23,053 nucleotides of DNA from a virus. Location: positions 1-23,053 of IMG/VR virus record IMGVR_UViG_3300028553_000178, one strand, 5' to 3'. A program made the position numbers and the translations under genes. Position 1 is the stretch's first letter. Every line of letters begins with the position of its first letter. Below the pieces are notes generated by a model that did not search any database, was not told the origin of the DNA, and was given only the letters and a program-made list of their open reading frames with translations. This document shows, one piece after another, positions 1,147 through 19,072 of the stretch.

Positions 1147-2156
1147 ACTTATTTAAAAAAGCTGCGGTATTCACTGACATTCATTGGGGCCTTAAGTCTA
1201 ATAGTATCATACATAATCGCGACTGCGAAGCATTTATTGATTGGGCTATCTCTAAAGCTAAAGAAGAAGGATGCGAGACGGGCTTCTTCTTGGGAGATTG
1301 GCACAATCATCGAGCTTCGATTAATTTACAAACTCTACAGTTTAGTTTACAAGCCCTTGAAAAACTATCTGCCGCTTTTGAAAAGTTTTACTTTATTCCA
1401 GGAAACCACGATTTATATTATCGCGACAAGCGCGATATTCATGGTGTAGAGTGGGCAAAACACTTATCTAACATTACGATCTGTAATGACTGGTTTAAAC
1501 AGGATGATGTTATTATTGCTCCGTGGCTAGTCGGAGATGATCATAAGAAGTTACATAAAATGAAGGCCAAATACATGTTTGGCCATTTTGAACTTCCTCA
1601 CTTTAAAATGAATGCCATGGTAGAAATGCCAGATCACGGTGAGATCAAGGTTGAGAGCTTTGGCGGTATCGAAAGTGTGTTTTCTGGGCACTTCCATTTG
1701 CGACAACAGAAAAAGAATATTAACTATATTGGTAACTGTTTCCCTCATAACTTTGCTGATGCCGGTGATGCCAATCGCGGCATGATGGTACTAGAGTGGG
1801 GCAAGGAAGAACAATATTTCTCTTGGCCAGGACAGCCCTTGTATCGTGTGCTTAAACTAAGTCAGGTCATCGACAACGCACCCAACATACTTGTGCCCAA
1901 TATGCACGTTCGCGTAGAACTAGACATTGACATCAGTTACGAAGAAGCTAATTTTATCAAAGACACATTTGTCAAGGATTACAATCTGCGAGAAATGGCA
2001 TTAATTCCTGTTAAGAGTAGTACTGTAGATTTAGACATGTCTCCAGGAGAAGTCAAGTTTGAAAGTGTGGATCAGATTGTTACAGACCAGTTGACCAACA
2101 TTGAAAGCGACTTTTACGATCCTAAGTTATTGTTAAAGATCTATCAGAATCTCTAA
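1143..2156 (+). CDS. gp47: recombination endonuclease subunit gp47 (Mre11-like)
   Basis: A 337-residue calcineurin-type phosphoesterase with all metal-binding motifs in order: TDIHWG near residue 11, FLGDWHNH near 49, PGNHD near 86, FGHFELP near 146 and SGHFH near 181. In T4, gp47 is the nuclease subunit that pairs with gp46 and resects DNA ends for recombination-dependent replication. Length equals that of T4 gp47 (about 339). ATG at 1143 overlaps the stop of the upstream endonuclease, and the TAA stop shares a base with the next ATG (TAATG), so the three genes are probably translationally coupled. gp46 follows about 3 kb later, separated by three inserted genes. Confidence 0.93.
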   Translation: MNLFKKAAVFTDIHWGLKSNSIIHNRDCEAFIDWAISKAKEEGCETGFFLGDWHNHRASINLQTLQFSLQALEKLSAAFEKFYFIPGNHDLYYRDKRDIHGVEWAKHLSNITICNDWFKQDDVIIAPWLVGDDHKKLHKMKAKYMFGHFELPHFKMNAMVEMPDHGEIKVESFGGIESVFSGHFHLRQQKKNINYIGNCFPHNFADAGDANRGMMVLEWGKEEQYFSWPGQPLYRVLKLSQVIDNAPNILVPNMHVRVELDIDISYEEANFIKDTFVKDYNLREMALIPVKSSTVDLDMSPGEVKFESVDQIVTDQLTNIESDFYDPKLLLKIYQNL

Positions 2157-3736
2157 TGCGTCAATTTGATAATGCCATTGCCAATCAACAAAATCTTTAC
2201 GACACCGTCGGGCCTTACTACTTGTCTAATGTTTTTCAACCCAACGGGGACAAACATTTACATGATTTTTTAACATCTGTCTATCAGACTGAATACCCTC
2301 CTGACTTTCGCATACTCATAATTCAAGATTGCGTAGATACGTATGATTATGCAGATCTGCCAGGTAGTGCCATTTGTGCTTTACAGAAATGTGCTAGCCA
2401 AATTGATATTAGTAATTTTTTTATTTTGGTCATCACTGGTAACAAAAACATATCAGCAGAACTTGAGCAAGTTCGACAACTGTATTCTACTGATTCTAAT
2501 GCTATACAAAGTTGTGTTGTAGAAGGCATTGAATACACCGAGATACATAAAAAACAAGATACTTTTTGTGTATTGCCTTGGATGCATCTATATGTAGGCA
2601 CTGACGGAAATGTTTTGCCTTGTTGTGTAGCCGATTATCAATACCCAATGGGCAATATTGAAGAACAACAAGTGGATAGTATTTTAACATCTCCTGCATT
2701 TAATCAATTACGAAAAAACATGCTGTCTGGGGTACGTAGTAAAGAATGCAACAGGTGTTATGCTCAAGAAGATGCCAACTTGAAAAGTAGTAGACTAGGT
2801 CACAATAATCAATGGAAAAACATCAAACAGTATAATCTTAATGAAGATGGATCGATTGACAAAGTCAACCCTGTGTATCTTGATATTCGATTAAATAATA
2901 TCTGTAATCTTAAATGTCGTATGTGTAGCGGATACTTTAGCAGTGCTATTGCTCAAGAAGAAGTTGTATTGTTTGATAAAAAAGAATCAGTGCAGTCGTC
3001 TCTAAAATTTCAACAACGAAATTTAGGATTAAAAAAAATTATAGAATATGTACCAACAGCTGAAAAAATATATTTTGCTGGAGGAGAACCGTTACTACCC
3101 GCGGAACATTATGAAATTTTAGATGCGTTGATTGCGTGTGGCAACACTGATTTAGAAATTACATACAATACTAATTTTACAACATTAAATTATCAAGGCC
3201 GTAGTGTCCTAAATCTTTGGAAGAAATTTAGTAATATTATCGTTGGCGCAAGCCTAGATGCCGAAGGTTCTGTGGCTGAATATGTCAGGCACGGCAGCGA
3301 CTGGAATATAATCAAATCAAATGTAGAATTAGTCAAATCTCAATGTCCACATGTAAATTTTACTGTAACATCAACCGTGGGGTTGTTAAATGTACACAGT
3401 TTGATTAGATTGCAACAAAATTGGCACAACACCAAAACTTTAGACATTTCAAAGTTTTCTCAATCTATTATGATTGGGCCAAATCACTTGACTGTATGTG
3501 CGTTGCCGTTAGAGTACAAACAACAGTTAGAGCAAACAATCAATCATCATATCGTTTGGTGTGAAGAAAATAATGCCAATGGTCTTGCAAAACAGTGGAA
3601 AGATGTGTTAAACTACATGTGGTCCAAGGACAACAGTCATTATATGTCGGAATTTAAAAGATTAACAAATCTAATGGATGTCCACAGAAAAGAATCATTA
3701 GCACACGTATTACCGGAATTACAAAATTTATTATGA
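2156..3736 (+). CDS. radical-SAM protein with N-terminal twitch/SPASM-like domain
   Basis: A 526-residue protein. Residues about 135-205 hold FCVLPWMHLYVGTDG, VLPCC and a later CNRC, the pattern of a twitch/SPASM auxiliary iron-sulfur domain, here placed before the core. The radical-SAM cluster motif CxxxCxxC is C250-NLK-C254-RM-C257, followed by the SAM-binding FAGGEPLL. The first ~130 residues are of unknown fold. Enzymes of this architecture cleave SAM to make a 5'-deoxyadenosyl radical; many SPASM/twitch members modify peptides or proteins, others small molecules. The substrate cannot be read from the sequence. It shares a TAATG junction with gp47 and overlaps the SGNH-like gene by 4 bases. 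A second radical-SAM gene lies at 6923. Base composition is more AT-rich than in gp47, consistent with later acquisition. Confidence 0.85.
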   Translation: MRQFDNAIANQQNLYDTVGPYYLSNVFQPNGDKHLHDFLTSVYQTEYPPDFRILIIQDCVDTYDYADLPGSAICALQKCASQIDISNFFILVITGNKNISAELEQVRQLYSTDSNAIQSCVVEGIEYTEIHKKQDTFCVLPWMHLYVGTDGNVLPCCVADYQYPMGNIEEQQVDSILTSPAFNQLRKNMLSGVRSKECNRCYAQEDANLKSSRLGHNNQWKNIKQYNLNEDGSIDKVNPVYLDIRLNNICNLKCRMCSGYFSSAIAQEEVVLFDKKESVQSSLKFQQRNLGLKKIIEYVPTAEKIYFAGGEPLLPAEHYEILDALIACGNTDLEITYNTNFTTLNYQGRSVLNLWKKFSNIIVGASLDAEGSVAEYVRHGSDWNIIKSNVELVKSQCPHVNFTVTSTVGLLNVHSLIRLQQNWHNTKTLDISKFSQSIMIGPNHLTVCALPLEYKQQLEQTINHHIVWCEENNANGLAKQWKDVLNYMWSKDNSHYMSEFKRLTNLMDVHRKESLAHVLPELQNLL

Positions 3737-5166: not shown

Positions 5167-6926
5167 TAAGCATAAAAAATCTTACCGTTAAAAATTTCAT
5201 GAGTGTGGGCAACGCCACTCAGGCCATTGACTTTGACCGCAAGGACTTGACTTTGGTCTTGGGCGAGAACTTAGATCTAGGTGGTGACGGATCAAGAAAC
5301 GGCACAGGTAAAACCACAATTATCAATGCTCTTAGCTACAGTCTATACGGGCAAGCACTCAGCAATATCCGCAAAGATAATCTCGTAAACAAAACCAATA
5401 ATAAGAACATGTTAGTTAGTTTAGATTTTAGTGTAGGTGGCAAGGATTACAAAATTGAACGTGGGCGCAAACCTAACTTACTTAAATTTTTTGTAAACAA
5501 TCAAGAACAAGTTATTACAGACGAAGCACAAGGTGATAGCAGAGAAACACAAGATTCTATTGAACAAACACTGGGACTTAGCCATGATATGTTCAAACAT
5601 ATTCTAGCACTTAATACCTATACAGAACCATTTTTGAGTTTAAAAGCCAACGATCAACGTACAATCATTGAGCAGTTACTGGGCATTACCTTGCTGTCAG
5701 AACGCTCTGACCGTATTAAAGAACTTAATAAACAAACCAAAGATGGAATAACCCAAGAAGAATTTCGTATTCGTGCTGTTCAGGAAGCCAACAAACGTAT
5801 CGAAGAACAAATCGAATCGTTAAAACGTAGGCAAACATTATGGGTCACTAAACATGGCGAAGATATCCAGGAACTTGAGAAAGCCCTTGCGGCGTTACAG
5901 AATATACAGATTGAAAGTGAGATCCAAGCGCACAAAGATCACAAGGCATGGGATCAAAAGCGCAAGGATATCAACGAACTATCAGTTCAGATCTCGCGAG
6001 TCAAACTGGATATCGGTCGGGAGGAAAAGCTGGCAGCCAAAATATCAAAAGAAATTGAAACGCTCGCTAACCATGAATGTCATACGTGTGGTCAGCCCTT
6101 CCACGATAGTAAGCACCAACAAGTTATGGAAACGAAACAGAGTGATTTGGATGCGGCTAGAGAGAGCTGCACAACGTATAGCACCCTCTTATCAGAATTA
6201 CAGACTGCCCACGACAGCCTGGGCCCGTTAGGTAAAGCACCCAAAATGTTCTACGATAAGGAGTCGGATGCTATTCAACATCAAGCTACATTGGCTAACT
6301 TAGAAAAACAAATTGCCGCAAAACAAGTAGAAACAGATCCGTATGCAGAACAGATTGAAGAAATGCAACAACAAGCCTTACAGGAGGTAACATATGACGC
6401 ACTTAATGAACTTACTCGCTTACAAGAACATCAAGAGTTTTTACTCAAATTACTCACCAGCAAAGATTCGTTTATCCGTAAAAAGATTATTGAACAAAAT
6501 CTTAGCTATCTAAATGCTAGACTCACACATTACTTAGATCGTGTGGGCTTGCCGCACACAGTGGTATTCCAAAACGACTTAACTGTCAGCATCGAAGAGC
6601 TCGGACGTGAGTTAGACTTTGATAACTTGAGTAGAGGTGAACGCAATCGTTTAATCCTAAGTATGAGCTGGGCATTCCGTGATGTGTTTGAGAGTTTATA
6701 TCAGCCTATCAATCTGTTGTTTATAGACGAAATGATTGACAATGGCTTAGACACACAAGGTGTAGAAAATGCCCTGGCATTACTAAAGCACATGAGTCGT
6801 GAACGACACAAGAGTATTTGGCTAGTAAGTCACAGAGATGAACTTGCTGGTCGGGTAGAAAACATCCTTAAAGTTGTTAAAGAAGGTGGATTTACAAGTT
6901 ACAACACGGATGTCGAAATATCGTGA
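5163..6926 (+). CDS. gp46: recombination endonuclease subunit gp46 (Rad50-like ATPase)
   Basis: A 587-residue SMC/Rad50-type ATPase, partner of gp47. The Walker A region at about residues 34-53 reads GENLDLGGDGSRNGTGKTT, an extended version of the GRNGGGKST type of T4. Coiled-coil segments flank a zinc hook CHTC at C306/C309. The C-terminal head carries the signature LSRGERNRL, Walker B LLFIDEM and the His switch LVSHRDE. The start must be TTG at 5163: a TAG stop lies directly upstream in frame, and the first ATG falls inside the conserved NFMSVG segment. AGGA at 5152-5155 is well placed for it. The TTG overlaps the TGA of the HNH gene, and its own TGA overlaps the GTG of the next gene, so expression is likely coupled. 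Length is close to T4 gp46 (560). Confidence 0.93.
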   Translation: MISIKNLTVKNFMSVGNATQAIDFDRKDLTLVLGENLDLGGDGSRNGTGKTTIINALSYSLYGQALSNIRKDNLVNKTNNKNMLVSLDFSVGGKDYKIERGRKPNLLKFFVNNQEQVITDEAQGDSRETQDSIEQTLGLSHDMFKHILALNTYTEPFLSLKANDQRTIIEQLLGITLLSERSDRIKELNKQTKDGITQEEFRIRAVQEANKRIEEQIESLKRRQTLWVTKHGEDIQELEKALAALQNIQIESEIQAHKDHKAWDQKRKDINELSVQISRVKLDIGREEKLAAKISKEIETLANHECHTCGQPFHDSKHQQVMETKQSDLDAARESCTTYSTLLSELQTAHDSLGPLGKAPKMFYDKESDAIQHQATLANLEKQIAAKQVETDPYAEQIEEMQQQALQEVTYDALNELTRLQEHQEFLLKLLTSKDSFIRKKIIEQNLSYLNARLTHYLDRVGLPHTVVFQNDLTVSIEELGRELDFDNLSRGERNRLILSMSWAFRDVFESLYQPINLLFIDEMIDNGLDTQGVENALALLKHMSRERHKSIWLVSHRDELAGRVENILKVVKEGGFTSYNTDVEIS

Positions 6927-7933
6927 CCTTAGCAACCTGGCATTTTCACATAGAAGTCAGTAGTAAGTGTACTTTGCGTTGTCCTCGATGCGCTCGTCAA
7001 GAAGTTCCGGACACATTAATTAACACTGAATTAGACTTAGAATTCTTTAAACGTAACTTTACAGAACAATTTGTTTTAGATAGTGTAGAGAAGATTACTT
7101 TTTGTGGTGACGACGGTGATCCTATATATGCACACGATCTTATACCTGTAATAGAATATATTAAAAAGATTAAACCTGTTGAGATTGTTATTATTACCAA
7201 CGGCAGTTATAGGAAACCAGAATGGTGGCAAGGACTAGGGAGTGTTCTAACTTCGCAAGATACTGTGCATTTTAGTATTGATGGGTGGGATAATGAATCT
7301 AATAACTTGTATCGTGTTAATAGCGACTTTAATAGCATACTCGAGGGTGTGGTTAATTTAAGATCTGCTAGTGCCTGTCGACTTATTTGGGCCGCAATTG
7401 CGTTTAAGTTTAACGAACATAATCTTAATAAAATTGCAAGCATAGCAGAAAGCTGCGGCTTTGATGCTGTACAATTTACTAAGAGTACCAAGTTTGGTAG
7501 CATTTATCCCAGCTACGGTAATAATGACGAACTTGAACCAAGTAGTCAGTTAGTAAGCGGCTCGCATAGATTTGAAAGAGATGTTATACTGTTAAGCTCA
7601 CGTGGACTTACTTCACAAAATGTAAAGAATATAGAACTGTATAAAACAGTAAAAGAAATTAACAATGTTAAACCGTTGTGTGAAATTGGTAATAAAGGGT
7701 TGTATATAGATGCACGTGGTCGATTGTTTCCATGTTGTTGGGTGGCTAATCGATACACCCATAATACAGAATGGCAAGAGTTGGCAGAACAGTTTAACTT
7801 ACATACCCGAACATTATCAGATGCAGTAACTGATGATTTTTGGGACACAAAATTTAGAACTTTTAAGTGGCAAGAATGCCAAACAAAGTGTGCAGCCTCC
7901 GGGGTTAATGAAAAATATGCAACTGAGTGGTGA
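6923..7933 (+). CDS. second radical-SAM protein with C-terminal twitch-like domain
   Basis: A 336-residue protein. The cluster motif is near the N-terminus: C16-TLR-C20-PR-C23, followed by ITFCGDDGDP, which replaces the usual GGEP element. The C-terminal part has CEIGNKGLYIDARG, LFPCCW and later ECQTKC, a twitch/SPASM-like auxiliary cluster domain in the standard C-terminal position, unlike the protein at 2156. The start is GTG at 6923, overlapping the gp46 stop (GTGA). Substrate unknown. Members of this superfamily with auxiliary clusters often modify peptides or carry out dehydrogenation or epimerisation, but nothing here fixes the reaction. It is followed after 18 bases by a GIY-YIG-like gene and then by an SGNH-like gene. 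Confidence 0.82.
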   Translation: MTLATWHFHIEVSSKCTLRCPRCARQEVPDTLINTELDLEFFKRNFTEQFVLDSVEKITFCGDDGDPIYAHDLIPVIEYIKKIKPVEIVIITNGSYRKPEWWQGLGSVLTSQDTVHFSIDGWDNESNNLYRVNSDFNSILEGVVNLRSASACRLIWAAIAFKFNEHNLNKIASIAESCGFDAVQFTKSTKFGSIYPSYGNNDELEPSSQLVSGSHRFERDVILLSSRGLTSQNVKNIELYKTVKEINNVKPLCEIGNKGLYIDARGRLFPCCWVANRYTHNTEWQELAEQFNLHTRTLSDAVTDDFWDTKFRTFKWQECQTKCAASGVNEKYATEW

Positions 7934-7951
7934 AATGATAACTACTAGTCC

Positions 7952-8380
7952 ATGGTATGGTTGCACGAAAACACTCAAATTCAAGAACTACCCGAAGATT
8001 GTGTCGGATTCGTTTATCTAATCACAAATAAACAGTCAGGCAGGAAATACATTGGAAAAAAATTAGCAAAATTTAGTAAAACAACGTACAAGGTAGTAAA
8101 ATTAAAAAACGGCAACAAGAAACGCAAGAAAATCAAATCAAAAGTAGATTCAGATTGGCAAACTTATTGGTCTAGTTCTGATGAACTTAATAAAGACATC
8201 GAGTTGTTGGGAGAGGATAATTTTACAAGAGAAATATTATTCTATTGTGGTAGTAAAGCAGAATGTACCTATGTTGAGGCCAGAGAACAGTTCTCAAGAA
8301 AAGTATTAGAAAGCGACGACTGGTACAACGGACAGATAGTTTGCCGTATACACGGTAGTCACATTAAAAATAAGATATGA
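7952..8380 (+). CDS. GIY-YIG domain protein (Seg-like)
   Basis: A 142-residue single-domain protein: GFVYLITNKQSGRKYIGKK at about residues 19-37 is a clear GIY-YIG motif, followed by SDWQTYWSSS, the REILFYC strand and YVEAREQF with the probable catalytic Glu. A lysine-rich insertion (KNGNKKRKKIKSK) lies between the motif halves. Similar short proteins occur widely in marine T4-like phages with the signature ending in YNG and CRI, as here. Their steady presence hints at a phage function rather than only homing, but this is from memory. No separate DNA-binding domain follows the nuclease. The ATG at 7952 is 18 bases after the radical-SAM stop, and its TGA overlaps the ATG at 8377. Confidence 0.75.
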   Translation: MVWLHENTQIQELPEDCVGFVYLITNKQSGRKYIGKKLAKFSKTTYKVVKLKNGNKKRKKIKSKVDSDWQTYWSSSDELNKDIELLGEDNFTREILFYCGSKAECTYVEAREQFSRKVLESDDWYNGQIVCRIHGSHIKNKI

Positions 8381-11603: not shown

Positions 11604-12106
11604 TGTCTAGGGTCCTTGCGATGCTGGAACAACATAGTTAGGTATTCTTCAGGCCACGCATTATAAAACCCCTGTCGCGCCATTGCCTTTGCTTTTTTGT
11701 CTAAGTCGCCCAGGCTCTGTACTAACGCTAGAGCATAGGTACCTTGATTCATGCAAACACCATTGACAATTTCTGGATCACCGGGATGATCCTCTAATAC
11801 AATAATATCGGCTGGCAGCAAAAAATCAATGTTAGCCTGCTCAAGAATTTTGCTAAACTGTTCATGCGGCCATAGTGCAGGATCATAGGCAATAACCACA
11901 ACACTTTTGCCTCCTACTCCTTGCCAGGCAATTTCCTTGAGATCGGTTTTGGGATCAGTGCCGATTCTTACACTAAAGTCTTGATCTAGTCGAGCTTTAC
12001 GTGCATACGGGCACGGTGGCCAATTGCCAAGTGCAGGGTTAGGAACCTCTACAAAATTGATAATCCACTGCTCTATATCGTGTTTAACGGTTTCTAAATT
12101 TAACAT
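11600..12106 (-). CDS. conserved hypothetical protein with NWPPCPYA motif
   Basis: A 168-residue soluble protein. Near the N-terminus, VEVPNPALGNWPPCPYARKA looks like a conserved binding or catalytic segment, with one Cys in a Pro-rich context. Then comes an alternating strand/helix region (SVVVIAYDP, DIIVLEDHPGDPE) ending in QHRKDPRQ. I recall relatives in marine phages and bacteria but no function. It overlaps both neighbours (TAATG upstream, GTGA downstream) and so belongs to the same transcript as gp26. Together with the following two genes it forms a small accessory block. Confidence 0.75.
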   Translation of the reverse strand: MLNLETVKHDIEQWIINFVEVPNPALGNWPPCPYARKARLDQDFSVRIGTDPKTDLKEIAWQGVGGKSVVVIAYDPALWPHEQFSKILEQANIDFLLPADIIVLEDHPGDPEIVNGVCMNQGTYALALVQSLGDLDKKAKAMARQGFYNAWPEEYLTMLFQHRKDPRQ

Positions 12107-12294
12107 TAAAAGTGCGGTAGTCCTGATTTTTTAGTTGTTTCGTAGTTGTCTTTGACAATGTCGTTGATAATAGTACGCTCGACTTGGCTCATCTGCATGG
12201 CTTCTTCGTATGTTACGCCGCCTCTCATATACCAACACATTTTTAAAACATCAAGCCGAATGTTGCGTGTTTCTTTTTCCATAGCATCGACCAT
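12106..12294 (-). CDS. 62-codon frame downstream of gp26, probable frameshift extension
   Basis: ATG at 12294 would give a 62-residue helical protein (VLKMCWYMRGGVTYEEAMQMS, ending KKSGLPHF). I recall close matches just after gp26 in marine T4-like phages. No Shine-Dalgarno precedes the ATG, which also sits in the loop of an 8-bp hairpin. The frame is open upstream, through the end of gp26, and lies in -1 relative to gp26. A T-TTT-TTC heptamer there would let ribosomes enter it, adding 76 residues (14 before the ATG plus these 62). It may be made as a fusion, as a separate protein, or both. The stop shares a base with the next ATG. Confidence 0.7.
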   Translation of the reverse strand: MVDAMEKETRNIRLDVLKMCWYMRGGVTYEEAMQMSQVERTIINDIVKDNYETTKKSGLPHF

Positions 12295-12308
12295 ATTGGA
12301 GATGCTAT
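12281..12308 (-). other. 8-bp hairpin downstream of the slippery site
   Basis: ATAGCATC (12281-12288) and GATGCTAT (12301-12308) are perfect reverse complements with a 12-base loop that holds the ATG of the 62-codon frame. On the minus-strand transcript it lies 27 bases after the slippery heptamer, further than the usual 5-9 bases of a frameshift stimulator. It may instead hide the internal start. A CTAGTACTAG palindrome at 12316-12325 lies between. Confidence 0.5.
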
Positions 12309-12320
12309 CGGAGTCTAGTA

Positions 12321-13163
12321 CTAGGAGGCGTTCCCGAAAAAATTGGACATATCTAGTGTAAACAACTGTTTATACTCTTCGGAACATTCTTCACAGGTTA
12401 CACTAATAGGGGTTATGTCGGTTGCTTCTCGAAGTTTAACAGTGTGATCACGGATCTGATCAAAAACATGTTTTGGACAATTTTGTAAAAACTCTAAAAT
12501 GTTGGGCTTGTCGTTTACAATAGCATCCATGGTTTTGATTGTTGCAATTGACTCCGATATGGACTTAATAGTAAGTTCGGTTATTTTTCTAAAAGCATTG
12601 CCTAATTCCTTTAGTTTTTCTTCTTCGGTTAGCTCAGAGTTACTCAACGCCTGCATAATTTTTTGATCTTCGAAGTTAGTTCTACTAACTTCGTTAACCT
12701 GGCGATATGTCATTGGTGCAAAATAACATGTCAAGTCCCCGGCACTAACAGACTCGTTATAATCAGGACTTCTAAGAGTGTCGAGCACAGTTCTTAGATC
12801 TATAGTTAATGCATGATTATGGCCACATTTTGGGCAGGTACTACTAATTTCCATTTCGTGACCATAACTAGCTAGTCTAATAGAAACCAGTAACGTATTA
12901 AAGTCAATCATGGGCATTTGCCACGGATCTTTAATTGCCGGAGCACAGCTAGCCATAATATCCATAACAGCCGACCCGTTAAACAAGGCATCTGGCGTTC
13001 TGCTAGTAATTTCGTCAATGGCAGTCATTGGTAAAATTGGTATTTCACCGTTGGGCGGCATGTCCAACGTGCCTGCAGGGTAGTATTTTCCGCCACTGGG
13101 CAAGCGCACATGAATTGCCGGTTGTCGAAAATATCGACGTAAAGGGTTGTTAGTTTGGGTCAT
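12321..13163 (-). CDS. gp26: baseplate hub/tail assembly protein gp26
   Basis: A 280-residue protein of the T4 gp26 type (Pfam T4_baseplate as recalled). It has the N-terminal VRLPSGGKYYPAGTLDMP, then ILPMTAIDEI, TPDALFNGSAV and DFNTLLVSIRLASYGH, a strongly conserved series in cyanophage gp26. A zinc-ribbon-like set is present: CPKC near residue 128 and CEEC near 262. The reading frame extends upstream to a TTG at 13187, but ATG at 13163 is preferred since the conserved region follows it and GGTGGA lies just before. It is transcribed divergently from the tape-measure-like gene, 44 bases apart. The 3' end holds a -1 slippery heptamer that would extend it by 76 residues, consistent with a tail-assembly-chaperone role. 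Confidence 0.85.
   Translation of the reverse strand: MTQTNNPLRRYFRQPAIHVRLPSGGKYYPAGTLDMPPNGEIPILPMTAIDEITSRTPDALFNGSAVMDIMASCAPAIKDPWQMPMIDFNTLLVSIRLASYGHEMEISSTCPKCGHNHALTIDLRTVLDTLRSPDYNESVSAGDLTCYFAPMTYRQVNEVSRTNFEDQKIMQALSNSELTEEEKLKELGNAFRKITELTIKSISESIATIKTMDAIVNDKPNILEFLQNCPKHVFDQIRDHTVKLREATDITPISVTCEECSEEYKQLFTLDMSNFFGNAS
12336..12342 (-). promoter_or_regulatory. candidate -1 ribosomal frameshift site T-TTT-TTC in gp26
   Basis: The minus strand reads AAT TTT TTC GGG in the gp26 frame, so the heptamer T-TTT-TTC is in the correct register for simultaneous tandem slippage. It comes four codons before the gp26 stop (GGG, AAC, GCC, TCC, then TAG). After a -1 slip, translation continues RERLLVLDSDSISN into the 62-codon frame with no stop until 12106. 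Predicted products are 280 residues (no slip) and 352 residues (slip). Long-tailed phages commonly use this device in tail assembly chaperone genes next to the tape measure gene. Confidence 0.65.
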
Positions 13164-13207: not shown

Positions 13208-15484
13208 ATGGCTGACGAAAATCAAGAACTACAACGAATAGCAGATGAACTGCGAAATTCCTTCCAGGGCCTTGACGCCGCTACCAAAAATGCCAATGTT
13301 GGACTAGGTGCGTTTAATAAAGAACTTAAAACAGTACCCGGACAATTGGCCAAAGGGTTAGGCGGCCTAGCTTCTAGCGTAGCCAAAGGGGATACTAGCC
13401 TTAAGAGCATGAATTCAGTAGTTGATGTTGCTGCAAATGCTATTAGTGGACTGGCAAAAACAGTTCCTATATTTGGCGAAGCAATATCAGCGGCAACTAA
13501 AGCTCTTGCCGAAGGTGCCAAAATAGTAGTCGAACAACTTGACGCTACTGCTAAAACATTCAATGCCATGTCGGCAACAGGAGCTCTTGTTGCCGATGGT
13601 ATGACAGGCCTGTCTCGTCAGTTTACCACAGCAGGTTTAAATTTACAGCAGTTTCAAAAAGTTGTCGGGCAAAACTCCGTAGCACTAGCACGGTTCCGTG
13701 GTATGGCCGGCGAAGGGGCTGAAGATTTTAGCAAGGCAGTTGGCGCATTAACACAAGGGCAAGACCTTAGCTTACGTAAACTAGGTATGGGCGCAGAAGA
13801 TATTGCATCCACAGCCGGCGCATTTATAACACAACAAACAAGACTTGGTAGATCACAGTCGATGTCTACCGAGCAACTAACTGCTGGATCTAAACAATAT
13901 GCAATAGAATTAGATCAGTTAAGCAAAGTAACAGGCTTAAGTCGCGAAGCAATACAAAAACAACAAGATGCTGCATTAAGCGAAAGTAAATTCCGCGCTA
14001 ATTATGAATTGGCAATGCAAAGCGGCAACGAAGAACAAATCAAGGGTGCTCAAGGCATGATGACTCTGCAGACCCGCATGTCATCATTTGGCGCAGAAAT
14101 CGGTCAAGGGGTGAGAGATTTATCCTCGGGCGTTGCCAACACCGAAGCTTCACAAAAACTGCTTAATAGCACCGGTGGTGCTGCATTAGACATCATTAAC
14201 CGATTAAAATCAGGATCGATAGATCAAGATCAAGCACAGCAAGAATTAAACGATGCCTACCAAAGAAATAAACAAGCACAATTGCAAATTGCCAGCCAAA
14301 TAGGTGCAACCTCAAACACTTACATTGATACAGCTCAGATGGCAGATTTTGGCAATGCAATGCAAAAAGGCGCCTGGGAAAAAGCTAAAAAAACTCAAGA
14401 TGCTCAAATTGATAAAACTGATGACCTAACAAACTCCACAGTCGCTGCTCAGAAAAATCTTGAAAGGATGAATGTTGAATTTAGTAAAATGGCCATTAAA
14501 CTAATGCCCGCAGCTGCTAAAGCAATTGAGTTAATGACTGATAACATGATGAAAATGGTTAAGTGGGTTAACAAAGAGCTCGGCCGTGAGGATGTAGATA
14601 CACAAGAGCAAGATACCGCAAACTGGAAACAGATGACAGCTAGTGAAAAACTTGAAAGTGGTATTGCACGTGGGCTAGAGAAAGCAGTAGGATTAGTAAG
14701 TAATAAAGGCAAAAGTCTCCTACAAAGTCAGCGTGTTGAAACCGAGTCGGAATATTTACAAAAACAAGGTCGTCCGGGTGTTGTCTCGCCTAAAGGGTCG
14801 GCACCAGCCGGCACTTCCGGAAGTCCACAAGCTGGCCCACCTGCGCCGGTCTCGCCTAAAGGGTCGGCACCAGCCGGCACTTCCGGAAAGCTCGAGCCTA
14901 CAACTCAATCTGATTTAAAGAATATGGGCCTTAAAATTAAAGAAGGTGATGTCCAAGGACAAGACAACGGTATTAGTCCGACACTAATCGAGTTGGCCAA
15001 AAAAATTCAAGAAAGTATTCCAGGATTTGCATATTTTTCAGGATTTAACGACAAGTACCATCAAGAAAATTCGCCGTCTAGCGAACACACAAAAGGACTA
15101 GCATTAGATTTTGCTTTAGGAAAAAAACCATCTAAAGAAGAAGGAGCACAGATAGCTAGCATTCTTAAAGGGCTCGGGGCATCGTACGTGCAAGACGAAT
15201 ATAATAATGCCAGTGCTAAGGCCACCGGAGGGCACTTTCACGCCGCAGTATCTGCTGCCAATGGTGCAATTTTAAGCGGCCCTACTAGTGGATATCAACC
15301 TAATCTAACCATGCACGGTACTGAAGCAATTGTTCCACTAAACAGCCCAGCGGCACAAAGCATGGGCATGGGCAGTGACAATTCGGGTATTATGGCCGCA
15401 CAGTTAGAGAAGCTAGAAGAAATGGTTTCGGTAATGAAGAGTCAACTATCGGTAAGCACAAAAATAATGCAGTATGCTAGCTAG
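13208..15484 (+). CDS. tape-measure-like tail protein with M15-type peptidase domain
   Basis: A 758-residue protein. Residues 1-500 are Ala/Gln/Lys-rich helix-forming sequence with a hydrophobic Gly/Ala stretch near 75-110 (ISGLAKTVPIFGEAISAAT), typical of tail tape measure proteins. A Pro/Gly/Ser linker follows at about 520-565 and contains a perfect internal duplication. Residues about 595-685 carry the zinc site of M15 (VanY/endolysin-like) peptidases: SSEHTKGLALDF with H627 and D634, and GGHFH with H676 and H678. The tail end (HGTEAIVPL) resembles the C-terminus of many tape measure proteins. It would set tail length and open peptidoglycan during DNA entry. It sits beside gp26 and upstream of the portal. 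Identity as T4 gp29 counterpart is inferred from composition and neighbours. Confidence 0.75.
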   Translation: MADENQELQRIADELRNSFQGLDAATKNANVGLGAFNKELKTVPGQLAKGLGGLASSVAKGDTSLKSMNSVVDVAANAISGLAKTVPIFGEAISAATKALAEGAKIVVEQLDATAKTFNAMSATGALVADGMTGLSRQFTTAGLNLQQFQKVVGQNSVALARFRGMAGEGAEDFSKAVGALTQGQDLSLRKLGMGAEDIASTAGAFITQQTRLGRSQSMSTEQLTAGSKQYAIELDQLSKVTGLSREAIQKQQDAALSESKFRANYELAMQSGNEEQIKGAQGMMTLQTRMSSFGAEIGQGVRDLSSGVANTEASQKLLNSTGGAALDIINRLKSGSIDQDQAQQELNDAYQRNKQAQLQIASQIGATSNTYIDTAQMADFGNAMQKGAWEKAKKTQDAQIDKTDDLTNSTVAAQKNLERMNVEFSKMAIKLMPAAAKAIELMTDNMMKMVKWVNKELGREDVDTQEQDTANWKQMTASEKLESGIARGLEKAVGLVSNKGKSLLQSQRVETESEYLQKQGRPGVVSPKGSAPAGTSGSPQAGPPAPVSPKGSAPAGTSGKLEPTTQSDLKNMGLKIKEGDVQGQDNGISPTLIELAKKIQESIPGFAYFSGFNDKYHQENSPSSEHTKGLALDFALGKKPSKEEGAQIASILKGLGASYVQDEYNNASAKATGGHFHAAVSAANGAILSGPTSGYQPNLTMHGTEAIVPLNSPAAQSMGMGSDNSGIMAAQLEKLEEMVSVMKSQLSVSTKIMQYAS
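14783..14888 (+). repeat. perfect 40-bp direct repeat in the linker of the tape-measure-like gene
   Basis: Bases 14783-14822 and 14849-14888 are identical over 40 bases with a 66-base (22-codon) offset. Both are in frame and encode VSPKGSAPAGTSG. The repeat lies between the helical part and the peptidase domain. Its identity at third codon positions points to a recent duplication or continuing recombination; linker length may vary between relatives. Confidence 0.95.
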
Positions 15485-15504: not shown

Positions 15505-15987
15505 ATGGCATTTTACGTATATCAATATATTACAGAATCAGGAACTCCTTACTATATAGGAAAAGGATGTGGTCGTCGCATCCATGTAGAGCATACTAAA
15601 ACAGATTTACCGCCAATAGAGCGTAGAATCATTATTAAAGATGGACTTACAAACGAAGAAGCAAAACAATTAGAAGGCAAACTAATTACCGAATACGGAC
15701 GTAAATTAGATGGCGGAATTTTAGATAATATTAAGATCAATCAATGGGCTTGTCACACAGGATGGACGCATTCAGAAGATGCAAAGCGCAAGATAAGCAA
15801 CGGTAATAAAGGAAAAGTTCGCACCGAAGAACATAAAGCTAACTATCGTAAACCGAAAACAGCAGAACACGCCGAAAAAATTAGACAAGCAAATTTAGGG
15901 CGTCCGTATGATCCGGTTAGATCGGCTAAAATATCGGCTACTCTTAAAGCAAGAAACAAAGCACTCAGGGAACAATTAAATGGCTGA
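15505..15987 (+). CDS. GIY-YIG homing endonuclease with NUMOD3-like repeats
   Basis: A 160-residue protein. YVYQYITESGTPYYIGKG at residues 4-21 is a GIY-YIG motif, followed by GRRIHVEH and LEGKLITEYGR with the probable catalytic Glu. The C-terminal half has NUMOD3-type DNA-binding repeats: HSEDAKRKISNGNKGK, then TAEHAEKIRQANLGR and RSAKISATLKAR. This is a standard free-standing homing endonuclease. It is placed between the tape-measure-like gene and the portal gene, and its TGA overlaps the portal start by 8 bases, so insertion preserved the downstream start. No Shine-Dalgarno is visible. The portal gene next to it carries an intein, so two kinds of homing element meet at this locus. Confidence 0.85.
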   Translation: MAFYVYQYITESGTPYYIGKGCGRRIHVEHTKTDLPPIERRIIIKDGLTNEEAKQLEGKLITEYGRKLDGGILDNIKINQWACHTGWTHSEDAKRKISNGNKGKVRTEEHKANYRKPKTAEHAEKIRQANLGRPYDPVRSAKISATLKARNKALREQLNG

Positions 15988-18900
15988 ATCAACAAACGGG
16001 CGTAATGGTCGTAATGGCGGATGGCGCAAGTATTTTAAAGTCGCTAGCCCAGGCGGCCAACTTAGCCCAATTTCGGGTCAGAATCAATTTGGACTCAACG
16101 GCTACCCTAAGCAAAACGGTCCAGGCTTTGATAACCAAACCGGCGGTACACCGAACGACTTTGCCTTCCGCAACTATGCAAGTCGCTTGCCAGAAGTATA
16201 TTCCGGCCATCCTAATCGTATCGAACGCTATAATCAATACGAAAATATGGATTGCGATTCAGAGGTAAATGCCTGCTTGGATATTATTGCCGAGTTTTCC
16301 ACGCAGGTCAACGACGACAATCAAACACCGTTTGATATTAATTTTACTGACAAGCCCACCGATCACGAAGTAGAGATTGTTAAAAAACAACTACAACAAT
16401 GGACCAAGCTAAACAAGCTAGACCAGAGAATATTCAAACTATTCCGCAATACAATCAAGTACGGCGATCAAGTATTTGTTCGTGACCCAGAAACATTTGA
16501 AATGATGTGGGTTGACATGGTCAAGGTTGCCCGTGTTATTGTCAACGAAAGCGAAGGCAAACGTCCTGAGCAGTATATTATTCGTGACATTAATCCTAAC
16601 TTCCAAAACATGAGCGTAGCTCAAAAAACCACCAGCGATTACTATGTAAGTCGTGCTACCGGCAGTTCCGGCCAAAGCAACTATACATCACCCGGCGGTG
16701 GCGGTGCAGGTGGTGGTACTGGCAACGGCGGTGTTGGCAATAGCCGTTTTACACAGGCCATGAACGAAACCTGCTTAGATGCTCGCCACGTGGTGCATCT
16801 TAGCCTAAACGAAGGACTTGACTTTTTCTGGCCATTTGGACAAAGTATCCTGGAAAACATATTCAAAGTTTACAAGCAAAAAGAATTGCTGGAAGACTCT
16901 GTGTTGATCTATCGTGTTCAACGTGCTCCAGAGCGCAGAATTTTCAAAATTGACGTGGGCAATATGCCTAGCCATATGGCCATGCAGTTTGTGGAACGTG
17001 TTAAAAATGAAATGCATCAACGTCGTATTCCTACCAATGCAGGTGGTGGCGCCAACATGATGGATGCCAGTTATAACCCGTTATGTTTAGATCTAAGCAC
17101 ACAAATTCCGTTACTTGACGGCCGCACACTACCACTTGCTGAGATCATTTCAGAATTCAATGCCGGCAAAGAAAACTGGATCTACAGTTGCGATCCGGTA
17201 ACCGGCGAAATCATGCCCGGTGTAATTGACTGGGCAGGTATCACCAAACGCAACGCCGACGTGATTAAAATCACCTTGGACAACGGCAAGGAACTCGTAT
17301 GTACCCCTGAACATAAAATTCCTGTACTAGGCCGAGGGTTTGTGGAAGCCAAAGATCTTACACCCCAGGACAGTTTAATTGCATACAACACACAAGATAA
17401 AAAAATATCAGACAACTCGTCTGAGTACCAACAAGTTTGGGATCACAAAACCAAGTCTTGGGTATGGACTCATAGAATGGTTGGAGAATTTTTTAGAAAC
17501 ATTGAAAAACACCAAGAGTTTACATATCTTGAAGAAAATATCGGTAAAGCCAAGGCAGTAATTCATCACAAAGACAGCGACCGATTTAATAACGATCCAC
17601 GCAATCTTGCTTACATGAACAAGGCCGACCATATTTTATATCATGCGGCCCAGAAAAAAACATTCTGGGAAGATATGACTCCAGAATATCGTGCCCGGAT
17701 GATAGGAAAAATTTCTGCCACTGCCAAAGACAATTGGAATAATTTAACAGAGCAACAGCGGTTATTGGCCATGTATAACATAAGAAACGCACAGAAAAAG
17801 TCTGTGTGGATGCGTAAAAATGATCCTGACACCACGGCAAGTTACAAGAAAAACGCCGGCACCGCCAGACGCAGATATATTCAAGACAATCCTGCATTTA
17901 AACAGCAACTACTTAAAAATTTAGATAATCGGGTATTTTTAAAAAATCAACCGTTAAATCTAACACAAGACATGCTAGGCATCGTGGTAAACATTGTAAA
18001 AACACAAACAAAGAATAAAAGCAAGGCCTTGTCCTTGTGTGATCAACACAGCGAATTACTGAATCTGGTCAAAGAAGCTAACCCTAGAATAGCTGGTCTT
18101 GAGTGTAAAATTGATTACAGCAAGTGGGGATACAGTAAAATGGATCGTTTGCTGGCTAACTTTGGATATAAAAATTGGAAAACATTTGTTAAAACAGTTG
18201 ACCTATACAATCACAAGATTATCAGCATAGAAACAGTGGAATCTCGTGATGTAGGGACTATCACGGTTGACGGACAAGAAAAATGGCATTCGCATCACAC
18301 ATTTGCTATTGACGCTGGAATATTTGTTAAAAACTCAATCAACGAAGATTACTTTTTTCCTGTGACTAGCGAAGGTCGCGGCAGTGACGTTACTACCTTG
18401 CCCGGCGGTTCAAACCTAGGCGAAATTGACGATTTAAAATACTTTAATAACAAAATGGCCCGCGGTCTACGTGTGCCAAGTAGCTACTTGCCCACAGGTC
18501 CAGACGACTCAGACCGTGCAATGAATGACGGCAAAGTAGGCACAGCACTTATTCAAGAATACCGATTTAACCAGTATTGCATGCGTTTACAACGCTTAAT
18601 CATGCAGAAATTAGACGACGAATTCAAGATGTTCCTGCGCTGGAGAGGCTTTAATATTGACGCAGGATTGTTTAGTATAGCCTTGTGCGAGCCACAAAAC
18701 TTTGCCAGCTATCGTCAAAGCGAGCTAGACGTAACACGTATCTCGGCGTTTACACAGTTAGAACAAATGCCTTACATGAGCAAGCGTTTTATGATGAAAC
18801 GTTACCTGGGATTAACCGAAGAAGAAATTCAAGAAAACGAAACACTATGGGCTGAGGAACGCGACGAGCCCGAGTTAACCACCACACAAGGTCAAGATCT

Positions 18901-19072
18901 ACGGTCAATTGGGGTTACCCCTGCGGGGCTAGAAGCAGACATTGCCACTGGCGAAGAACTAGCCGGAGCAGAAACTGGCGCCGTTCCGGGCGGCCCCGAA
19001 GGCAGTATGCCAGGAGCACCTACATCAGTGCCAGGCGCTCCAGCCGGTGCCCCACCGATACCGACAATTTAA
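15980..19072 (+). CDS. gp20: portal vertex protein gp20, interrupted by an intein
   Basis: The 1030-residue precursor contains an intein at residues 369-785. Removing it leaves 613 residues, compared with 524 in T4. Conserved portal segments are seen on both sides: RIERYNQYENMDCDSEVNACLD and YGDQVFVRDPE upstream, and SINEDYFFPV, TTLPGGSNLGEIDDLKYF, ARGLRVPSSYL and NDGKVGTALIQEY downstream. The portal is the dodecameric DNA gate at one capsid vertex and nucleates prohead assembly. A Gly-rich stretch at about 236-250 (PGGGGAGGGTGNGG) looks like an added flexible loop, and the C-terminus is Pro/Ala/Gly-rich. AGGGA near 15967 precedes ATG 15980 by about 9 bases; the start lies inside the end of the GIY-YIG gene. 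Active portal requires protein splicing. Confidence 0.93.
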   Translation: MAESTNGRNGRNGGWRKYFKVASPGGQLSPISGQNQFGLNGYPKQNGPGFDNQTGGTPNDFAFRNYASRLPEVYSGHPNRIERYNQYENMDCDSEVNACLDIIAEFSTQVNDDNQTPFDINFTDKPTDHEVEIVKKQLQQWTKLNKLDQRIFKLFRNTIKYGDQVFVRDPETFEMMWVDMVKVARVIVNESEGKRPEQYIIRDINPNFQNMSVAQKTTSDYYVSRATGSSGQSNYTSPGGGGAGGGTGNGGVGNSRFTQAMNETCLDARHVVHLSLNEGLDFFWPFGQSILENIFKVYKQKELLEDSVLIYRVQRAPERRIFKIDVGNMPSHMAMQFVERVKNEMHQRRIPTNAGGGANMMDASYNPLCLDLSTQIPLLDGRTLPLAEIISEFNAGKENWIYSCDPVTGEIMPGVIDWAGITKRNADVIKITLDNGKELVCTPEHKIPVLGRGFVEAKDLTPQDSLIAYNTQDKKISDNSSEYQQVWDHKTKSWVWTHRMVGEFFRNIEKHQEFTYLEENIGKAKAVIHHKDSDRFNNDPRNLAYMNKADHILYHAAQKKTFWEDMTPEYRARMIGKISATAKDNWNNLTEQQRLLAMYNIRNAQKKSVWMRKNDPDTTASYKKNAGTARRRYIQDNPAFKQQLLKNLDNRVFLKNQPLNLTQDMLGIVVNIVKTQTKNKSKALSLCDQHSELLNLVKEANPRIAGLECKIDYSKWGYSKMDRLLANFGYKNWKTFVKTVDLYNHKIISIETVESRDVGTITVDGQEKWHSHHTFAIDAGIFVKNSINEDYFFPVTSEGRGSDVTTLPGGSNLGEIDDLKYFNNKMARGLRVPSSYLPTGPDDSDRAMNDGKVGTALIQEYRFNQYCMRLQRLIMQKLDDEFKMFLRWRGFNIDAGLFSIALCEPQNFASYRQSELDVTRISAFTQLEQMPYMSKRFMMKRYLGLTEEEIQENETLWAEERDEPELTTTQGQDLRSIGVTPAGLEADIATGEELAGAETGAVPGGPEGSMPGAPTSVPGAPAGAPPIPTI
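17084..18334 (+). mobile_element. 417-residue intein with HNH endonuclease domain in gp20
   Basis: Cys1 (bases 17084-17086) begins CLDLSTQIPLLDGRTLPLAE (block A). Block B is GKELVCTPEHKIPV with the TxxH motif. The nuclease part carries TKSWVWTHRMVGEFF, then VIHHKDSDRFNNDPRNLAYM (H529, H530 and the Asn of HNH) and DHILYH. A Lys/Arg-rich region that may bind DNA follows. Block F has HSHHTFAIDAG and block G ends FVKN, with the last Asn at 18332-18334 and Ser as the first extein residue. The penultimate residue is Lys, not His. The joined extein reads ASYNPL-SINEDYF, restoring a portal sequence between two conserved regions. Its position inside the portal gene and the complete nuclease motif suggest it is still mobile. 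Confidence 0.92.

Follow-up and report, generated by a model that had tools for sequence, protein, structure and literature searches.

In long-tailed phages the frameshift that joins tail chaperone frames G and T is widely conserved, and a 2016 review excepted T4 from this pattern (PMC5009743, through which we cite Xu, Hendrix and Duda 2004 for conservation of a -1 frameshift among the tail assembly genes of phages). T4 gp26 and gp51 have been listed among the hub assembly chaperones (PMC3004832), and Vladimirov, Gautam and Davidson (Virology 2022, 566:9-15), as cited in PMC10885494 and PMC12846349, identified gp26 and gp51 as the tail chaperone genes of T4-type phages. The PRFect paper reports from that study that some T4-like phages have one short gene and one fused long gene (PMC10885494), and the paper on Pseudomonas phage Adele refers to it on poly-T signals for frameshifting within T4-like TAC-N genes (PMC12846349), so the T4-type frameshift may be partly published. 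We found no description of a -1 frameshift in jumbo-phage or cyanophage gp26 in the literature, in which the 2022 study was represented by the papers that cite it.

We analyzed a stretch of 23,053 nucleotides, IMG/VR record IMGVR_UViG_3300028553_000178, referred to here as the window. It contains a gp26 gene whose 3' end carries a slippery heptamer, and we consider it highly probable (about 0.88) that this one gene makes both a short and a long tail assembly chaperone by -1 frameshifting at T_TTT_TTC. The locus is solidly a member of the known class described above, and its evolutionary pattern is informative.

The gp26 locus and its -1 frame

Table 1. Features of the gp26 locus, in positions of the window.
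Feature	Coordinates	Strand	Remarks
gp26	12321..13163	-	ATG at 13163, TAG at 12321-12323; 280 aa; PF12322, phrog_150
Slippery heptamer T_TTT_TTC	12336..12342	-	in the gp26 frame; exact TTTTTTC in 203/205 loci
-1 frame after the slip	12106..12342	-	78 codons plus stop; predicted helical C-terminal domain
62-codon ATG frame	12106..12294	-	inside the -1 domain; lacks a ribosome site and a conserved start
Candidate tape measure protein	13208..15484	+	758 aa; phrog_14121, virion structural protein, E=5.5e-7

The gp26 protein scored 60.9 bits against PF12322, above the curated cut-off of 24.5, and matched phrog_150 with E=1.2e-17. When profiles were compared with each other, that of the gp26 group matched one of cyanophage, Aeromonas and T4 gp26 (E=4.5e-20). 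On these matches it is a protein of the T4 gp26/PF12322 family. It has four cysteines, arranged in two CxxC pairs, that were invariant in 15 relatives. A structure model (pLDDT 86) found no Foldseek match in the PDB at E<=0.001, with middling Z-scores to unrelated folds, and a search of the PDB with sequence profiles found no match. A structure comparison of gp26 with chaperone G proteins had been proposed as a check, and no solved tail chaperone in the PDB matched the model. The model did resemble predicted structures of uncharacterised proteins of about 500 aa from the phiKZ-like phages RSF1, PhiEaH2, PaBG and Special G (E 1e-4 to 1e-7), and these may be the tail chaperones of their phages.

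The 3' end of gp26 reads AAT TTT TTC GGG AAC GCC TCC TAG, which confirms that T_TTT_TTC, as the initial annotation placed it, is in frame with gp26 and is separated from the stop by four sense codons. An X_XXY_YYZ element thus lies in frame close to the end of gp26, and the -1 frame is open across it. The -1 reading continues as FF-RERLLVLDSDSISNMVDAMEK... and, as had been claimed, runs straight into the 62-codon frame, with no stop until 12106-12108 and with 78 codons counted from the slip. The window held 14 heptamers against 12 expected from shuffles. As this count is at chance level, heptamer frequency was dropped as evidence, and the case rests on comparison with relatives. Among 21 larger genes of the window, a T-run heptamer near the stop was found in gp26 only; two others combined AAATTTA with an open -1 frame, which is open because the next gene overlaps.

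Past the gp26 stop, substitutions fell mainly on the third codon position as read in the -1 frame. The pN/pS of this frame was 0.11 in close pairs and 0.19 in wider pairs, while that of the other two frames exceeded 1, and by this measure the -1 frame is under purifying selection. Zero-frame tails past the slip ranged from one to eleven codons depending on the lineage, whereas the -1 frame kept FFRxxLL. The model of the -1 domain (mean pLDDT 81) has predicted helices at 11-40, 45-49 and 53-73, and its fold gave no match among viral models at E<=0.001.

A tape-measure-like gene had been described as the next neighbour. It does adjoin gp26, but it is divergent, on the plus strand, unlike the arrangement of lambda, where the tape measure gene follows within one operon. 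Its C-terminal GAILSGPTSGYQPNLTMHGTEAIVPL stretch is reminiscent of tape measure proteins, and its assignment as a tape measure protein is only suggestive. The gene that follows the -1 frame in S-SM2 and in pf16 weakly matched tape measure proteins; the gene order in these two phages would correspond to the G-T-H order of lambda, which is supportive but not decisive.

Elsewhere in the window, all on the plus strand, a gp20-type portal gene of 1030 aa (15980-19072) apparently carries an intein of about 400 residues in its middle, as read from the translation. Three small genes (460-1146, 7952-8380 and 15505-15987) resemble GIY-YIG homing endonucleases, the last of them matching phrog_314 (homing endonuclease). 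Radical-SAM-like cysteine motifs were seen in the translations of 2156-3736 and 6923-7933, in a T4-type replication and structural region.

Conservation of the slip site

All 23 IMG/VR relatives of gp26 (31-100% identity) kept T_TTT_TTC, one or four codons ahead of the gp26 stop, together with a -1 frame that stayed open for about 215-224 nt beyond that stop. Heptamer and open frame were also kept in 11 isolated jumbo phages (Phosso, Atu_ph07, BF, Munch, XbC2, GAP32, PA5oct, Vibrio 2.275, SCTP-2, RaK2 and 121Q). A search with the -1 domain alone, leaving gp26 out, returned 80 loci, every one of which had TTTTTTC in an upstream gp26-type frame of about 280 codons, unless cut by a contig end. 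A search with a cyanophage gp26 likewise returned 80 loci, all with the slip site 10 nt ahead of the stop and with an open -1 frame. The site was present as well in the cyanophages S-SM2 and Sf-FS3, in Aeh1, phiAS5 and EniLVp02 (Straboviridae), and in IC12, RL38J1 (TTTTTTG) and pf16 (TTTTTTT), so that 19 isolated phages have both the slip site and an open -1 frame. The initial annotation had named relatives lacking the heptamer, or with stops between the two frames, as evidence that would speak against a frameshift; the 23 relatives, the 80 loci found with the -1 domain and the 19 isolates keep both heptamer and open frame.

Altogether the slip site was found at the same place in 205 loci from lineages down to 35% identity (203 TTTTTTC, 1 TTTTTTG, 1 TTTTTTT), many of them near-identical, which formed 83, 47, 22 and 14 clusters at 90, 70, 50 and 35% identity. 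The residue ahead of FF varied (S, N, D, H, T, Y, R or G), and its codon ended in T always. Given the codon use of gp26, the probability of the codon choice at the slip site was ~1e-13 (14 clusters) to 1e-20 (22 clusters), with clusters taken as independent and the two heptamer variants counted as matches. Synonymous conservation was highest at the slip codons.

A downstream stimulatory RNA structure was not significant in the window (z -1.4). Strong hairpins lay directly past the slip in Atu_ph07 (z -7.5; L025 3338-3419), Phosso (z -4.1; L024 3328-3409) and a 561-kb contig (z -3.4; L022 3823-3904), and these are good candidates for frameshift stimulators. Several cyanophage, Aeromonas and Rhizobium loci were also seen by eye to have a purine-rich, Shine-Dalgarno-like stretch immediately ahead of the slip.

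Relation to T4 gp51 and distribution of the gene pair

T4 gp51 matched T4 gp26 by blastp (2e-6) and has a C-terminal extension; on this similarity gp51 is a paralogue of gp26. The -1 products of cyanophages, Aeromonas, Vibrio and related phages aligned to gp51 200-251 (probability 96%, E=1e-8) and matched phrog_150 from position 231, where the gp26 match ends. These alignments clearly point to the -1 product in related lineages being the C-terminal extension of T4 gp51. For the window-type C-domain, the direct profile match to gp51 was weak (E=0.11, or 7e-4 with a mixed alignment); through intermediates the two were connected at 1.2e-4 and then 1e-8, in the same register and at the same genomic place. 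It had been suggested that gp26 may be a hidden homologue of the tail assembly chaperones. The homology is supported by sequence, through the match of the related -1 products to the gp51 C-terminus, and again by the finding that the genomes checked with a separate gp51 gene are without the slip site. The word hidden does not hold, because Vladimirov et al. (2022) had already recognised gp26 and gp51 as the tail assembly chaperones of T4-type phages. T4 gp26 also weakly matched the gp28 family phrog_1140 (E=9e-4; T4 gene 28, L036 5849-6382), and gp28 may be a third relative of these chaperones.

Out of 25 complete genomes, only T4 and Aes508 had two full-length family members, and neither of them had a slip site. 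The other 23 had one full-length member, and 19 of these had the slip site. Together with the homology to gp51, this distribution makes it very probable that one gene makes both forms in slip-site phages. In the record of the window, which is the 23-kb window itself and probably a fragment, gp26 was the only gp26-type protein found. In Cygsa01, K469, HMGUkp5 and Mutine (L040, L046, L048 and L050), the C-domain frame adjoins gp26 in the -1 phase; a canonical X_XXY_YYZ heptamer is absent from these four, which have ATTTTC or CTTTTTG near the stop, and in Cygsa01 and K469 stop and start overlap as TAATG. With T4 and Aes508 aside, the two frames were not joined in any of 23 annotated records, and in current genome records of slip-site phages the long chaperone is thus missing or split.

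A further case was seen in an uncultured 484-kb phage (LR756508, L035), where a gp26 relative at ~3170-3500 is without the heptamer and has an open +1 frame behind it, not a -1 frame. This +1 frame holds a C-domain-like stretch, YYSNGGYSWYNVYHHMPVHHRKF, and the relative possibly uses +1 frameshifting.

Phages that carry gp51 as a gene of its own grouped together in the gp26 tree (100/100), the four phages without the heptamer formed another (99/98), and the slip-site phages made up the remainder, giving two changes in all. From this unrooted tree we infer as the simplest reading that an ancestral frameshift was lost twice. The slip site occurs in most T4-type lineages sampled outside the clade of T4, and T4 is probably derived. 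A wider scenario, which we put forward tentatively and hold at somewhat under even odds, is that the frameshift was the ancestral source of the long chaperone across the T4 superfamily, jumbo phages and cyanophages included. It would then have given way to genes 26 and 51 in the T4 clade, and in a second clade to a frame that overlaps or is re-initiated. If that were true, the textbook exception T4 would be a derived state, and this view may not yet have been stated in print. The family would offer a test case for the replacement of a translational ratio switch by a gene pair.

Mechanism, alternatives and described systems

We propose that gp26 serves a large T4-type phage as its short tail assembly chaperone, and that a minority of ribosomes would slip one base back at T_TTT_TTC, the P-site tRNA-Phe re-pairing with TTT and the A-site tRNA-Phe moving from TTC to TTT. 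The long form would then consist of 276 gp26 residues and 76 from the -1 frame, 352 aa in all, and its extra helical domain would correspond to the C-terminus of T4 gp51. On the lambda model of gpG and gpGT (PMC5009743), the two forms would act together in loading the tape measure protein, which the short form would coat, and tail tube or baseplate parts would be brought in by the long form. The occurrence of slippage, its ratio and the partners of both forms are inferred.

Many records annotate the downstream frame as a gene of its own, and the TAATG overlap of Cygsa01 and K469 comes without a heptamer; both observations would fit an incidental heptamer and a small protein in its own right, whose translation re-initiates after, or is coupled to, termination at the gp26 stop. 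We consider such a protein improbable. The claim that the 62-codon frame has no ribosome site proved correct, with no Shine-Dalgarno-like motif ahead of its first ATG, and none was found ahead of the first -1-frame ATG in any of the 68 distinct checkable 78-codon sequences, the window included. Within the window group this ATG shifts between codons 4 and 39 and is not conserved, while conservation of the -1 frame begins with FFRxxLL at the slip, ahead of any start codon. An independent start of the 62-codon frame was rejected on these grounds, its translation on its own being unlikely, and a separate protein would also leave the synonymous conservation of T_TTT_TTC without a reason.

The fusion could also come from ordinary translation if RNA polymerase slipped on the T run and produced mRNAs one base longer or shorter, a six-T run being a known kind of transcriptional slippage site, as discussed in PMC5009743. 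Against this, the conserved element keeps the phase X_XXY_YYZ: the preceding codon ends in T, C (once G or T) follows the run, and all but one of the 205 loci have a run of exactly six. A fixed phase and a six-T run suit tandem tRNA slippage, whereas polymerase slippage would favour longer runs with no fixed phase, and we regard it as very improbable here. As for chance, a frequent heptamer could happen to lie close to a stop and be followed by an open frame, or one gene could have been split by faulty assembly. The heptamer count of the window would agree with the former, but the arrangement recurs in 205 loci from many independent assemblies, finished isolate genomes included, and selection acts on the -1 frame. 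Conservation has already refuted this last explanation.

Programmed -1 frameshifting in gp26, the reading we prefer, shares with lambda gpG/gpGT a slippery heptamer near the 3' end of the chaperone gene, a -1 frame that adds a C-terminal domain, and a tape-measure-like gene nearby. It differs in having a poly-T site and in having the tape-measure-like gene on the opposite strand. Lambda G/GT uses another heptamer than poly-T. We detected no sequence or solved-structure link of gp26 to lambda gpG/gpGT in this analysis.

Closer in its slip motif is Pseudomonas phage Adele (Vandenendeviridae), a myophage whose tail chaperone has a conserved poly-T slip motif, GTTTTT, and whose downstream frame is usually misannotated as a separate gene (PMC12846349). 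Adele belongs to a different phage group, and its likeness to gp26 noted here is one of arrangement. T4 gp26 and gp51 are of the same family as the window's gp26, with gp26 as the short form and gp51 as the long form with a C-terminal extension. In T4, however, the long form comes from a separate in-frame gene, 51, whereas here it would apparently come from one gene and a slip site.
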